From Bacteroidota bacterium (GTDB taxonomy: Bacteria > Bacteroidota > Bacteroidia > B-17B0 > Aurantibacillaceae), in the NCBI GenBank assembly GCA_900299295.1, contig OMJH01000017.1, forward strand, positions 1 to 50,354: a DNA stretch of 50,354 nucleotides, read 5' to 3'. Every line of letters begins with the position of its first letter. Positions within the stretch are counted from its first letter, which is position 1. Under the pieces are notes generated by a model. That model searched no databases. It saw nothing but the letters and a program-made list of their open reading frames with translations, and was not told where the DNA came from. Positions 14,473-47,351 of this stretch are shown one piece after another. The position numbers and the translations under genes were made by a program.

Positions 14473-16281
14473 TTAATTCTTAATTACCTTTCTGCATATT
14501 TCCTTATTTCCGGCTTTTACTTTAAGATAATAAATTCCTGCTGCCAGGTTTGAGTTTGAATGCTTGAAATGTTGCTCACCCTTTTTAGCTTTTTCTGTGG
14601 CGACCAGCGCAACTGAATTTCCTAAAACATCAAACAATTCGATTGCTACTTCACTTTCGTTTGGAAGGTTGAAATTAATCGTCAATTCATCCGAAAATGG
14701 ATTGGGAGCAACCGTCAGCGTTTGTAGGAAATCTGTTTCTTCAATTCCAACCACACCGCTAACAATTACAAAAGTGCAAACTGTATCGCTGCAACCGGGA
14801 ACAGGCGGAGGATTTAATACAGCACAAACAATATTAAATCCGTTAGCAGTGTACTGATGCGTTGGATTTAACCCAAATCCGGTACCACCATCTCCGAAAA
14901 TCCAGGCAACTACCGGAAAAATTCCTCCGTTCGTAACGTTTGCGGTAAATGTGTAATTACCTCCTCCGTTGTTTACATAACTGATTTGCATGGAGCACCC
15001 TGCAGAAGTTATAATGACCGTATCACAAAATTGTGATGTACATCCATTATCGGCTGAAACATAATCCATGCAAACGGTATAAGTTCCTGGCGAAGTATAG
15101 GTGTTATTTGCAATAGCCCCTGTACCGGTATTTCCATCGCCAAAATCCCAGGTATAGCTGTCATTAAAATTCAACGGATTTGCAGTAAATACCTGCACGG
15201 TGCCTGCACTGGTATTGTCCCATGAAACAGGACATGAAAGTGAATTAACAGTAACTACAAAGGTGTTGCAAACCGTATCAGCGCCACAGCCACCATTATT
15301 CTGAGTAACAATCATGCACGCTGTATATGTCCCGTCAATATAAAGATTGGAGGGATTTGCGCCACCACCAAAATTCCCGTCGCCAAAATCCCAATTAAAA
15401 CTATAGGATGAATTATTTGGAGTTCCAAAAAACTGAACATTTCCTGTCAGCGTATCAATAGTGTAGGAGTAATTTCCATTAATCTGTCCGGGAACAACAA
15501 TTGTATCAAATATTGAATTTGAACAACCGCTTTGCGTGACCATGGAAAGCTGCACAATATAAAAACCGCAGGAAGCATACGTAACGGATGGATTAACTTG
15601 CGTTGAGGTTTGAAAATTTCCGAATGCCCACTGAAAACCCGTGACACTGTCACCGGGTGCAGTTGAGGTATTTGTAAATGTTACCAAGGTTCCGCTGGCT
15701 GAATAACTAAATGAAGCCTGACACGCAGGTGCGTTAATATTTACATTGAAAAACGTACAAAAAGTGTCGGTTACACAAGCGCCTGAATTATCAGTAAAAA
15801 TTGTACAGGCCCATTGAGCTCCGTTTTGAAAATTGCTTGTTACCGTTGAACCAACCCCGGTGCCTCCGTTACTGAATCCCCAGCTGTAAAAAAAACCAAG
15901 TTGATTAGGTAAAGCCGATATAGTTACATCACCCGTGGTAGTATCAATAGAAACGGATAGGTTCGCATTTACAGAACCGCTTACAGCAATCGTGTCTTCA
16001 AATGTAGAGCTGCATCCTTGCGCCGTAACTATGTCAAGCGTAACAACATATGACCCGCAAGAAGAATAAACAAGAGATGTATTTTGACTAGAATCGACAC
16101 TTCCATTACCCAAAGACCAAGACCATGAAACGATGCTATCTGCAGTTACAACGGAATTATCTGTAAACATAACGGAATCCCCTGACTGATTATAAGTAAA
16201 GGAAGCGGTACATTGAGCGGTAACTGAAAATGATAATTGAAGGAACAATAAGGCGATAAAACAGGTAAAAAGATTTTTCAT
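14473..16281 (-). CDS. PKD-repeat surface protein with T9SS C-terminal sorting domain
   Basis: Seen: 602 residues. Signal peptide of about 22 residues ending near VTAQ. Six PKD-like modules follow (about 23-98, 100-180, 185-265, 266-345, 348-425, 428-505), several with the typical W.FGDG core, and each with paired Cys residues (GCS, DTVC types). The last ~80 residues are a type A T9SS sorting domain: VAPNPFSDELTINF, ELFDVLGN, LAAGIYYLKVKAGN. Known: such proteins are exported by Sec, moved across the outer membrane by T9SS, and attached or released after domain removal. No catalytic domain is visible; an adhesin or structural role is inferred. Convergent with the LOG gene. Confidence 0.88.
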   Translation of the reverse strand: MKNLFTCFIALLFLQLSFSVTAQCTASFTYNQSGDSVMFTDNSVVTADSIVSWSWSLGNGSVDSSQNTSLVYSSCGSYVVTLDIVTAQGCSSTFEDTIAVSGSVNANLSVSIDTTTGDVTISALPNQLGFFYSWGFSNGGTGVGSTVTSNFQNGAQWACTIFTDNSGACVTDTFCTFFNVNINAPACQASFSYSASGTLVTFTNTSTAPGDSVTGFQWAFGNFQTSTQVNPSVTYASCGFYIVQLSMVTQSGCSNSIFDTIVVPGQINGNYSYTIDTLTGNVQFFGTPNNSSYSFNWDFGDGNFGGGANPSNLYIDGTYTACMIVTQNNGGCGADTVCNTFVVTVNSLSCPVSWDNTSAGTVQVFTANPLNFNDSYTWDFGDGNTGTGAIANNTYTSPGTYTVCMDYVSADNGCTSQFCDTVIITSAGCSMQISYVNNGGGNYTFTANVTNGGIFPVVAWIFGDGGTGFGLNPTHQYTANGFNIVCAVLNPPPVPGCSDTVCTFVIVSGVVGIEETDFLQTLTVAPNPFSDELTINFNLPNESEVAIELFDVLGNSVALVATEKAKKGEQHFKHSNSNLAAGIYYLKVKAGNKEICRKVIKN

Positions 16282-42231: not shown

Positions 42232-44634
42232 TTACTGCAATACAATTTTTCGTACGGAAACACCTCTTTCACTGATAAATTTTATAAAATAAACGCCTTT
42301 CGGAAAACGAGAAAGATTCACTGACCTTTGATTATTTCCTTTTGATAAATCTTCCATAATCTCACGGTAAAGTTCCTCCCCGTTTAAATTTGTTACCTGC
42401 AAAATAAGAGAAGACTTCGAATCTAAACGCGTTGCCCAATTGACAATTCCATCAGCGCTTGGGTTCGGGAAAACATAAAAATAAGAAGTATTAACATCAG
42501 CTTTTGTTCCGAGCGGTGTTGTCAGGTTAACCAAATAATCTTCCGTTTCTCCGGAACCAAAATTAAGACAGGCAGAAGTTGAATCCAACGCGCCCGCAGT
42601 TGACCTTGATCGAATACGCATTCCGGTTAACCCCATTCCTACGTTCGTGGGTACTTGAAAAGATTTTACGTTAACAACACCTGCTGTTGAGGTTGTACAA
42701 ACCTGCGTTCCTTCGGTTGCTTCAAAAATACCATTCTGGTTATAATCAATCCACATTTCACATTTTGCATTGCCCTGTAATAAAACGTAAATGTTATAGG
42801 AAAACCCCCATATTAAATCGCCTGTTGTATTCCCGATTGCAGGATATTGTGTATAAAAAGTAGTTGAACATCCCGTTAACCCATTTGCCAATGTGGTGTT
42901 GTCTATCGCAACCGAATCAATTGTGGTTGCAGGCGTATTTACACATCCGCCGCCAATTCCGCTTACGCAGTAACAATTGTAAAAGGGTTGAATAACCACA
43001 GATACCACCGACGAAGTGTCTGACTGGCCACTACATGTTACCACACAAGCATATAGCGTATTTACTGTTGGTGTGGCGTTAAAAGATGGGCTAGTCGCAC
43101 CCGTTACATTGCTCCATGTCGTTCCGCCATCTGTTGAAGAAATCCATTGCACACTGCTTCCAAAACCGCTTGTAAATCCACTTACCGAAAGGGTCACCTG
43201 ATTACCGGAACAGATCGTATCATTGCTAATGGAAGCAACTCCTGCTGTGGGCGGAGCAACACAAGCCTGCGCAGGATCAATCGTAATCAAATAATCTTCC
43301 GTTTCACCCGATCCAAAGGTCGTACAAGCAGTGGTAGAATCATTCGCTCCGTTCGCGGCTCTCGAACGAACTCTCATTCCTGTTAAACCGGTCATCGCCG
43401 TTAGAGGAATATTTACCTGAGAAGTAACAACTGTATTTGCTGTTGAAGTAAGACATAACTGTGTCCATTCAGCCGGTTCAAATACTCCATTATGATTATA
43501 ATCAATCCAAACAGATGATTTGACATTACCGGTGTAGGAGGTATAAAACTGGTACGATTGACCTTGTGTTAAGTTTGCTGTAGTGTTTCCGGTTGCCGGG
43601 TAAGCTGTATAGAATACTGTTGAACAACCTGTAAGTCCATTTGCAAGTGTTGTACCTCCTATTGCAACTGAATCGATTGCGGTTGCCTGGGTAACGCAAC
43701 CACCTCCAATACCTGAAACACAATAACAATTATAAAATGGATTTACATCCACCAATACGGCATTTGAAGTGTCAGACTGCCCTGAACATGTAACCATGCA
43801 GGCAAAATAAGTTGCAGCAGTTATTGGTGTAGAGAAGGTGGAATTTGTTGCTCCGCCGATAGCTGTCCATATTATACCATTCGTTGATGAAAGCCACTGA
43901 TAGGTCAATCCTGATGCGGTTGTTGTTCCATTAAGTGTTAAAGACACCGGATTATTTCCACAAACAGCAACCGGGTTGGCAACCGTGGTACCGGCTACGG
44001 GAGTTCCTGTGCAAGCCAATACCGGAACAAAAACGAATTGCACGTTATGTCGGTTACCATTGATTAAGGTCCCATTGCCTCCGGGAGGGGTACCACTGCC
44101 AGTTAAGCTTTGCCAATATTGTTCCCTTGCCGCCGTAACTGCTGAATATCGAAATCCCTTACCAAGTATCTGAGCATCCGTGCCTGCAGTACCCCCGGAG
44201 TTGGTTTCAATAATAATTTCCAGATTATTGGTTGAATTGTAAATATAAGGTGTAGATAAATTAACCATTGTCCATTGCCCTTTTACGAAAGATGAAGCAG
44301 GTATCGAATCACTATACACGAGTAGCGCTCCGCTTTCTTCAGTTGCAACCGTGGAGGCGGTGAATGTAGAGTCGGTAACTTCCTTGATAAAAATTTTAGT
44401 TTTTGCATAACCTGGATTATTTATTGTGTCACAATAAAAACCAATCTGCGTGATTTGTCCGGAAGCATTTATTTCAGCATGAGTATATTTAATAGCTGTC
44501 CTTTCGTACGCGCGATTTGTACCAAATGGTTTTCGCCACGGACTCTGCGTTAATCCTGTGCCAACTGGATTTGCTGAAGGAATAATTACTGTTTGAGCTT
44601 TAAATCCGCAAATCAGCATTAGCGATAAAAACAA
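42232..44634 (-). CDS. GEVED-repeat secreted protein with T9SS sorting domain, signal peptide interrupted
   Basis: Seen: 800 residues from a TTG at 44634, but this start gives only a stub signal peptide (FLSLMLICGFKAQ) with no basic residues. Nine codons upstream, an ATG at 44661 gives MNQKS, then TAA, then TLILFLSLMLICGFKAQ, a perfect signal peptide but for the stop. Domain order: N-terminal beta domain (about 14-205); two copies of an Ig-like plus GEVED unit (about 208-452 and 458-704; GSGETEDYL ends each); and a type A T9SS domain (VFPNPSADGIVNW, LSRFPKGVYFIKF). Known: GEVED modules occur in large secreted surface proteins. It may be a recent pseudogene, a sequence error, or be rescued by a non-ATG start. 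Confidence 0.78.
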   Translation of the reverse strand: MFLSLMLICGFKAQTVIIPSANPVGTGLTQSPWRKPFGTNRAYERTAIKYTHAEINASGQITQIGFYCDTINNPGYAKTKIFIKEVTDSTFTASTVATEESGALLVYSDSIPASSFVKGQWTMVNLSTPYIYNSTNNLEIIIETNSGGTAGTDAQILGKGFRYSAVTAAREQYWQSLTGSGTPPGGNGTLINGNRHNVQFVFVPVLACTGTPVAGTTVANPVAVCGNNPVSLTLNGTTTASGLTYQWLSSTNGIIWTAIGGATNSTFSTPITAATYFACMVTCSGQSDTSNAVLVDVNPFYNCYCVSGIGGGCVTQATAIDSVAIGGTTLANGLTGCSTVFYTAYPATGNTTANLTQGQSYQFYTSYTGNVKSSVWIDYNHNGVFEPAEWTQLCLTSTANTVVTSQVNIPLTAMTGLTGMRVRSRAANGANDSTTACTTFGSGETEDYLITIDPAQACVAPPTAGVASISNDTICSGNQVTLSVSGFTSGFGSSVQWISSTDGGTTWSNVTGATSPSFNATPTVNTLYACVVTCSGQSDTSSVVSVVIQPFYNCYCVSGIGGGCVNTPATTIDSVAIDNTTLANGLTGCSTTFYTQYPAIGNTTGDLIWGFSYNIYVLLQGNAKCEMWIDYNQNGIFEATEGTQVCTTSTAGVVNVKSFQVPTNVGMGLTGMRIRSRSTAGALDSTSACLNFGSGETEDYLVNLTTPLGTKADVNTSYFYVFPNPSADGIVNWATRLDSKSSLILQVTNLNGEELYREIMEDLSKGNNQRSVNLSRFPKGVYFIKFISERGVSVRKIVLQ
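42523..43263 (-). repeat. Ig-like/GEVED repeat unit 2 of the GEVED protein
   Basis: Codes for residues of about 458-704. It shares FYNCYCVSGIGGGCV, TLANGLTGCST, FGSGETEDYL and VTCSGQSDTS with unit 1 (43279-44013), so it is a tandem duplication of about 245 codons with only a short linker between copies. Confidence 0.75.
43279..44013 (-). repeat. Ig-like/GEVED repeat unit 1 of the GEVED protein
   Basis: Codes for residues of about 208-452, upstream copy of the tandem pair. Same module order as unit 2; protein identity is clearly higher in the motif blocks than in the loops. Confidence 0.75.
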
Positions 44635-44661
44635 GATCAGGGTTTAACTTTTTTGATTCAT
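44635..44661 (-). other. Remnant of the GEVED protein's signal-peptide start with in-frame TAA
   Basis: On the minus strand: ATG AAT CAA AAA AGT, then TAA at 44646-44644, then ACC CTG ATC joining the frame at TTG 44634. A one-base change (for instance from AAA or TTA) accounts for the stop. The basic n-region (MNQK) and the hydrophobic core are otherwise normal. Confidence 0.75.
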
Positions 44662-44761: not shown

Positions 44762-45997
44762 CTAAATTTTCAAATTCAAATGCGAAGCAACAATTGATTT
44801 AGCTGCAACATAGGCTGTACTCCATGCCGCCTGAAAATTAAATCCGCCCGTAACGCCGTCTACGTTCAATACTTCGCCGGCGAAATACAATCCACGAATA
44901 CGCTTACACTCCATAGTTTTCATATCCACGTCATTCAGGTCTACTCCTCCACACGTAACAAATTCTTCCTTAAAAGTTGTTTTCCCACTCATCGTGTAAA
45001 CATCGCTTCCTAATTTATTCACTAAACGTTGAATGGATTTTGAGTTCTGTTCACTCCAGTTTTTTGACAATTCAATCCCTGATGAAACTAAAAGATACGC
45101 CCATAATCGCCTTGGTAAATGAAAAATAGCTGAATTTTCCGGGAATGAATTTGATTTTTGATGTATTGCATTCATCAGTGTTGCCCGTATCTGTTCCTCA
45201 TTTTCAAATTCAGTCCAGTTAATAATAATTTCTGCGGCGTAATTTCTTTCATGAAAAAACTCGGCTGCAAATGCGGAAAGTTTTAATACCGCCGGACCAC
45301 TGAATCCCCAATGCGTAATGAGTAACGGACCCCGGTATCGATATTTTGTTCCCGCAACTTTTACCTCAACGTTCGGAATACTAATACCCATTAATTCCGT
45401 TACAGACTGTGCTTTTAAATTAATGGTAAATAAACTTGGAACCGGAGAAATAATGCGAATGCCCAATGAATGTAAAAAATGATAGCCTTGAAGTTTATTA
45501 AAACCTCCGGCAGCCACAACAACAGACGAACAATTAATTTCATCTTTATGTGTTTTTACAACAAAATTTCCGATTGTTCCTTCAACTGAAATTACCTCAC
45601 AGGAAGTGCGGACGGAAACATGTTTAGCATTACAGGCATCAAACAAACAAGTTATAATGCTTTGTGAAGAATCTGATTTTGGAAATATTCTTCCATCCTG
45701 TTCCGTTTTCAACGGAACGCCCCGCGATTCAAACCACGCTTTCGTCTCCGCTACACCAAATTGATGAAAAACGTGTTTAAGTTGCCTGGCTCCCCTGGGA
45801 TAATTCTGAATCAAATCGGAAATATGTGTGCAATCGTGCGTTACATTGCAGCGACCTCCACCGGAAATCCGGACTTTAGAAAGCAGCTTTGAAGACTTCT
45901 CAAGAATAATAATTTGCGTTTCAGGAGCCATTTCGACAAGGTTTGCCGCTGAGAAAAAACCAGCAGCTCCCCCACCGATTATAACAACCTTATGCAT
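44762..45997 (-). CDS. HI0933/BaiN-family FAD-dependent oxidoreductase
   Basis: Seen: 411 residues. FAD-binding VVIIGGGAAGFFSAANL at the N-terminus, then the family marker KVRISGGGRCNVTH (about 41-54), VVVAAGGFNKLQGY, and the closing NVDGVTGGFNFQAAWSTAYVAAKS. Known: this widespread flavoprotein group has a Rossmann domain plus an inserted beta domain. Few members have proven functions; some reduce steroid or quinone-like substrates. The gene starts 24 bases after hutI ends, so the two may share a transcript without an obvious biochemical link. Confidence 0.88.
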   Translation of the reverse strand: MHKVVIIGGGAAGFFSAANLVEMAPETQIIILEKSSKLLSKVRISGGGRCNVTHDCTHISDLIQNYPRGARQLKHVFHQFGVAETKAWFESRGVPLKTEQDGRIFPKSDSSQSIITCLFDACNAKHVSVRTSCEVISVEGTIGNFVVKTHKDEINCSSVVVAAGGFNKLQGYHFLHSLGIRIISPVPSLFTINLKAQSVTELMGISIPNVEVKVAGTKYRYRGPLLITHWGFSGPAVLKLSAFAAEFFHERNYAAEIIINWTEFENEEQIRATLMNAIHQKSNSFPENSAIFHLPRRLWAYLLVSSGIELSKNWSEQNSKSIQRLVNKLGSDVYTMSGKTTFKEEFVTCGGVDLNDVDMKTMECKRIRGLYFAGEVLNVDGVTGGFNFQAAWSTAYVAAKSIVASHLNLKI

Positions 45998-46021: not shown

Positions 46022-47266
46022 TCAAAAAACATTTCCGTTAACAATTACCTTATCGATTAAATCCGCTGTAAAACTATACGGTATATAAGCAAGCGAAGGA
46101 ATTTCTTTTGTAATAATTACATTCCCTCTTTTACCATGAGCAATACTTCCAACTTCATGTTGCAATTCCATTGCGTATGCCCCGTTTAGGGTTGCTGCAT
46201 TAATTGCCTCTTCAGGCAACATTCGTAATTTTATACAGGCCAGAGAAATTACAAAACTCATTTTACCCGAGGGCGAAGAACCCGGGTTATAATCGCTTGC
46301 CAATGCCAAAGGAAGGCCGCTACTGATTATTTTTCGTGCAGGCGGATAATCAAATCCAAGAAAAAAAGCAGTTGATGGCAGTAAGGTAGGCATTGTATTA
46401 CTGTTCAATAATTCTTCTATTTCATTGTCAGCTGTAAATTCTAAATGATCCACTGAAACCGCGCGATGCTTCACTCCCACTTGTATACCTCCGGAATAAT
46501 CAAGTTCGTTCGCGTGAATTTTTGGCTTAATACCATACGAACCTGCTGCGCTTAAAATACGCTCGGTTTGTTCAACATCAAAAAAACCACGATCACAAAA
46601 CACATCTACGTAATCCGCAAGTTCTTCTGCAGCCACAGCAGGAATCATCTCCTTTACGACTAAATCCACGTATGCATCACGGTTCGATTTAAATTCAGCC
46701 GGAAAAGAATGCGCTCCCAAAAAAGTAGACTTAATTGGAATCGGAGACACTTCTTTTAATCGTTTTATCACCCGTAACATTTTTAATTCCGACTCCAGAT
46801 TCAGTCCGTAACCACTTTTAATTTCTACTGCTCCGGTTCCATTTTTTATCACTTCATTCAAACGCATTAACGCACTTTCATATAAATCGTTTTCAGAAGT
46901 GTTTCGTAATAGTTCTGCAGAATTTACAATCCCGCCTCCGCGTTTCGCAATTTCCTCATAGCTTAACCCGTTTATCTTATCCACAAATTCAGATTCCCGT
47001 GTTCCCGCGAAAACCATATGCGTATGACTGTCGCACCAGCTGGGTAATACAAATTTTCCTGCTGCATCAATTACCTCCAAAAAACGCCAGTCCTCAATCC
47101 CCGGAAAATTTTCCATACTTCCGTAATCGGCAATTTTACCCTCATCAATCGCAAGCCATGCGTCATTAATGCATGGCAATTTAGCCATTTCCTCTCCGCT
47201 CACTTTTTGAACTGAAACGTCATGAATTCCAACAAGTGTCTTAATATTTTTAATGAGAATTTTCAT
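46022..47266 (-). CDS. hutI: Imidazolonepropionase
   Basis: Seen: 414 residues from ATG 47266. The frame extends to 47320, but that extension (MCSDLSCFHERLLC) is not family-like and would run through the promoter. Metal ligands: DSHTHMVFAGTR (His81, His83), LGAHS (His186), HANELDYSGG and LASDYNPGSSP with the catalytic Asp. GGGIVNS and EIKSGYGL are also conserved. Known: HutI hydrolyses 4-imidazolone-5-propionate to N-formimidoyl-L-glutamate, third step of histidine breakdown. HutH, HutU and the later enzymes are not in the window. A -7 box ends 5 nt before the start codon. Confidence 0.94.
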   Translation of the reverse strand: MKILIKNIKTLVGIHDVSVQKVSGEEMAKLPCINDAWLAIDEGKIADYGSMENFPGIEDWRFLEVIDAAGKFVLPSWCDSHTHMVFAGTRESEFVDKINGLSYEEIAKRGGGIVNSAELLRNTSENDLYESALMRLNEVIKNGTGAVEIKSGYGLNLESELKMLRVIKRLKEVSPIPIKSTFLGAHSFPAEFKSNRDAYVDLVVKEMIPAVAAEELADYVDVFCDRGFFDVEQTERILSAAGSYGIKPKIHANELDYSGGIQVGVKHRAVSVDHLEFTADNEIEELLNSNTMPTLLPSTAFFLGFDYPPARKIISSGLPLALASDYNPGSSPSGKMSFVISLACIKLRMLPEEAINAATLNGAYAMELQHEVGSIAHGKRGNVIITKEIPSLAYIPYSFTADLIDKVIVNGNVF

Positions 47267-47271
47267 AGTAT

Positions 47272-47279
47272 CAAAAATA
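47272..47279 (-). promoter_or_regulatory. Candidate -7 box for hutI, nearly leaderless
   Basis: TATTTTTG on the minus strand ends 5 nt before ATG 47266. This supports the shorter hutI start and predicts an almost leaderless transcript. No -33 TTG at standard spacing (a TTTG lies 26 nt away). Confidence 0.4.
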
Positions 47280-47351
47280 CACAATAATCTTTCGTGGAAG
47301 CATGACAAATCACTGCACATGAATTAAGCAAATTGAATTATCTTAGCAGAC

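Follow-up and report, generated by a model that had tools for sequence, protein, structure and literature searches.

The gene considered here lies on the minus strand of the window (the whole stretch of DNA analysed, 50,354 nucleotides) and encodes a GEVED-domain protein with a type IX secretion (T9SS) tail. Its ATG is followed by codons for Asn, Gln, Lys and Ser and then by a TAA, beyond which TLILFLSLMLICGFKAQ continues in the same frame (Table 1). Read from the ATG, the frame comprises 809 codons and contains exactly one stop, at codon 6; the 803 codons past the TAA are open and end at the stop at 42232-42234. Mechanical open reading frame (ORF) calling places the start at a TTG and returns a protein of 800 residues. 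An in-frame TAA within the signal peptide of a GEVED T9SS protein had been described in an earlier note on this DNA, which was right in both coordinates and reading.

Table 1. Features of the GEVED gene (positions in the window)
Feature	Position	Strand	Remark
Ancestral ATG start codon (supported by relatives)	44659..44661	-	Same spot relative to the signal-peptide end in 5/5 closest relatives
Signal-peptide coding stretch, 23 codons, broken at codon 6	44593..44661	-	
In-frame TAA, codon 6	44644..44646	-	Column holds a sense codon (Leu or Lys) in 5/5 relatives
TTG picked by mechanical ORF calling	44632..44634	-	14-residue remnant without Lys/Arg
Intact 800-residue frame, GEVED / T9SS-tail protein	42232..44634	-	
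GEVED domain, best stretch, residues 374-451	43282..43515	-	Profile match
Internal repeat, copy two, 56% identical to the first; presumed other GEVED stretch	42544..43281	-	Second match in own genome
Por_Secre_tail, type IX secretion C-terminal signal	42241..42474	-	

The 800-residue ORF matches GEVED (PF20009) in two stretches with an E-value of 1.4e-40 (138.3 bits against a cut-off of 24.4) and Por_Secre_tail (PF18962) with an E-value of 1.2e-10, the latter giving it a C-terminal sorting domain. An internal duplication spans 42544-43515 (minus strand), its copies being 56% identical; in two relatives (L031 and L032) the proteins are longer and their matches overlap, which suggests one more repeat. 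In the portion of PMC10952558 available, GEVED is defined as a domain of fibrillar adhesins and is placed in adhesin-type proteins, and the product of this gene is likely to be a surface or secreted adhesin-like protein. Its domain make-up, internal repeat and C-terminal signal are those of other cargo combining GEVED with Por_Secre_tail, and the GEVED protein of its genus mate is 60% identical over the whole length. Unlike that other cargo, the protein of the window has a signal peptide interrupted by TAA.

Upstream of the GEVED gene lie an HI0933-like flavoprotein gene (44762-45997) and a further gene (46022-47320), which we take to be hutI. In a member of another genus of the same family (L003), the gene immediately upstream of the GEVED homologue is a homologue (60% identical) of this putative hutI, and the arrangement is therefore old at least in part.

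The comparison of N-termini covered 15 distinct relatives, L002 and L033 being taken as one contig and counted once because both are 10337 bases long and share an N-terminus. The five closest (L031, L032, L033, L035 and L036) encode proteins that are 50-60% identical, and the stretch from the ATG to the Gln predicted as the cleavage site measures 23 codons in every one of them, just as it does in the window. The column of the stop is occupied by Leu in four of them and by Lys in the genus mate. The four Leu rows are 91-99% identical over 75 nt and represent approximately one lineage, so that the five relatives amount to about two independent lineages. In each of the ten further relatives (L003-L011 and L014), the signal peptide is unbroken and begins with an ATG. 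An N-terminal Sec signal peptide is therefore intact in 15/15 relatives examined and is broken at codon 6 in the window as assembled. This comparison of N-termini gives good support to the ATG as the probable ancestral start. The signal-peptide region is free of stops in every relative examined, and the TAA is accordingly not a conserved feature. A scan of genome contigs, from which the window's own and very near records may have been excluded, yielded relatives but no near-identical copy of the locus; the genus is represented by two genomes only, the source and one other (that with the 60% identical protein), with one genome per species.

The type IX cargo of the same genome provides a yardstick for these N-termini. 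Por_Secre_tail has 95 matches in the genome, 94 besides the target; 10 of these are cut by a contig end and were set aside. An open frame with an ATG-started signal peptide is present in 82 of the remaining 84: 69 of them satisfied an automatic rule for signal peptides that included an ATG, and inspection of the N-termini by eye added 13. Nearly all of the intact genes (81/82) encode Lys or Arg within residues 2-6, and their signal peptides are 17-39 residues long with a median of 21 (75/82 with a measurable xQ junction). Breaks are also seen in other cargo genes. In L225 (G000:C127:1411-2217), codon 96 is an in-frame TGA; the signal peptide before it is intact and the C-terminal signal beyond it is open. 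L213 (G000:C103:7713-8690) is a C-terminal-signal frame lacking a signal peptide, with upstream coding in another frame, and looks frameshifted. Both breaks can be explained equally well by assembly error or by real decay.

Single substitutions that would create a stop make up 325 of the 7272 possible in the frame (4.5%). Had selection ceased, the finding of no second stop in 809 codons would limit the unselected substitutions to fewer than about 67 at 95% (2.8% per site), a bound that indels would tighten. The undamaged remainder of the frame makes the stop a recent one in evolutionary terms. Comparison with the genus mate gives a dN of 0.32 and a dS saturated at approximately 2.2, which shows that the protein was constrained in the past.

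A stop stands where the relatives have a sense codon, and the remaining frame is intact. The gene as assembled is most probably (about 85%) a null allele of an ordinary T9SS cargo gene, being either a single recent nonsense allele or the product of a wrong consensus base. One substitution would have converted the sense codon at position 6 of the signal peptide to TAA; two compensating one-base indels could have given rise to the same sequence. Translation from the ATG would then stop after five residues. No downstream start appears to restore a usable signal peptide, so the GEVED protein of approximately 800 residues would not be exported, never entering the route through Sec and type IX secretion, and its expression is presumably lost. 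The claim that the signal peptide is disrupted while the downstream frame is intact is supported by the 800-residue ORF, its domains and the N-termini of the relatives. The secretion machinery, judged by SprA alone, is not visibly lost, given that SprA is encoded by an open frame of 2461 residues (SprA_N, E-value 4e-161). Loss of the whole secretion system was considered and rejected on the presence of SprA together with the signal peptides of 82/84 other testable cargo genes. A stop at codon 6 is an ordinary case and not a new biological device. In the portion of PMC8400371 available, the gldB gene of Flavobacterium psychrophilum FPS-S11B likewise carries one premature stop in a gene linked to type IX secretion or gliding that is otherwise intact. 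In contrast to that case, the stop in the window sits in the signal peptide of a single cargo gene, within an unphenotyped draft metagenome genome.

On a rival account, the gene may truly begin at the TTG or a nearby downstream codon, the mini-frame from the ATG being either meaningless or a leader for reinitiation. The TTG is 9 nt past the stop, within reinitiation range, and non-ATG starts do exist, with a GTG start in 1/59 cargo genes sampled from a related 6-contig genome (G009). Against this, a protein started at the TTG would have 14 residues up to the Gln, none of them Lys or Arg, and since such a remnant is both uncharged and outside the range of 17-39, its export is unlikely; none of the 75 measured signal peptides is as short and 81/82 are charged, and an ATG starts the signal peptide in nearly all of the genome's testable cargo. 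The earlier note had reserved the case of homologues that truly begin at the TTG, and a start in that position is found in 0/15 homologues examined. A true TTG start is thus improbable. Programmed frameshifting was dropped because inspection by eye of the two alternative frames near the A run showed that neither joins the main frame with one shift. That the TAA is read as an amino acid, by suppression or recoding, would fit the intact frame downstream of it. The 35 tRNA matches include none with the UUA anticodon that would decode TAA, in an assembly that is 93.17% complete and may lack a tRNA (33/35 were typed by ARAGORN; L154 and L157 are Ile-type and His-type by eye from sequence). TAA is moreover the terminator of 26/35 window genes, and the relatives have no conserved stop. 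The proposal of a suppressed stop is not supported by these observations, and such decoding is barely credible. Reversible mutation might instead switch a surface protein on and off within the population. Adhesin-type proteins are a class with known switching, and the occurrence of GEVED among them favours this account. A search for repeats around the site revealed no simple-sequence tract, invertible repeat or recombination site that could serve as a phase-variation device. The direct repeats measure 10-12 nt and the inverted arms 10-21 nt, with no more than 70-71% complementarity in the longer arms, and chance would be expected to give repeats of this sort; six A residues make up the run before the stop, and a single allele is represented. 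On/off variation, as the earlier note had suggested it, consequently lacks a visible device and is very unlikely. If the stop were real and maintained, inefficient read-through or reinitiation might confine the protein to rare cells or low amounts, acting as a nonsense-based brake on adhesin-like cargo, a scheme that is very unlikely.

A further account places the fault in the assembly: the cells would possess a sense codon, and the assembled sequence would contain either one wrong base or a pair of homopolymer errors that compensate each other. In favour of an error, the source is a draft metagenome genome of 230 contigs with 3.95% contamination, the remaining frame is pristine, and broken cargo genes number 3/85 testable in this assembly versus 0/59 in G009. 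The latter difference is not significant (Fisher p = 0.27) and is no proof that the source assembly is the worse of the two. The G009 sample comprised 59 of 150 matches (the top 20 plus 39 taken near the bottom of the ranking), all with an unbroken signal peptide; 57 passed by rule, among them L322 on the wrong Met, and L366 and L367 were accepted by eye. Real nonsense alleles are, in addition, common in bacteria. On general priors the base is real in the cells with a probability of about 60%, as opposed to about 35% for a wrong consensus base, the error being a possible but less favoured origin. Among the four readings originally offered, those of a recent nonsense mutation and a consensus error are both retained, and the other two are disfavoured. 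Literature searches for T9SS cargo subject to phase variation, for in-frame stops in metagenomes and for assembly errors yielded no papers.

Taking the gene as a null allele has a bearing on annotation. An automatic caller would start at the TTG, lose the signal peptide and report a cytoplasmic GEVED protein; TTG-started GEVED proteins of this kind should be flagged as broken secreted proteins. If the stop is confirmed, a lineage of Bacteroidota with 94 other C-terminal-signal matches would supply another instance in which one surface protein was lost recently. The one GTG start among the 59 sampled G009 cargo genes, and their only non-ATG start, belongs to the signal peptide of L322 (G009:C1:724818-726501). 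The window also contains a second Por_Secre_tail gene (14473-16281, minus strand), which has an intact signal peptide and an ATG start.
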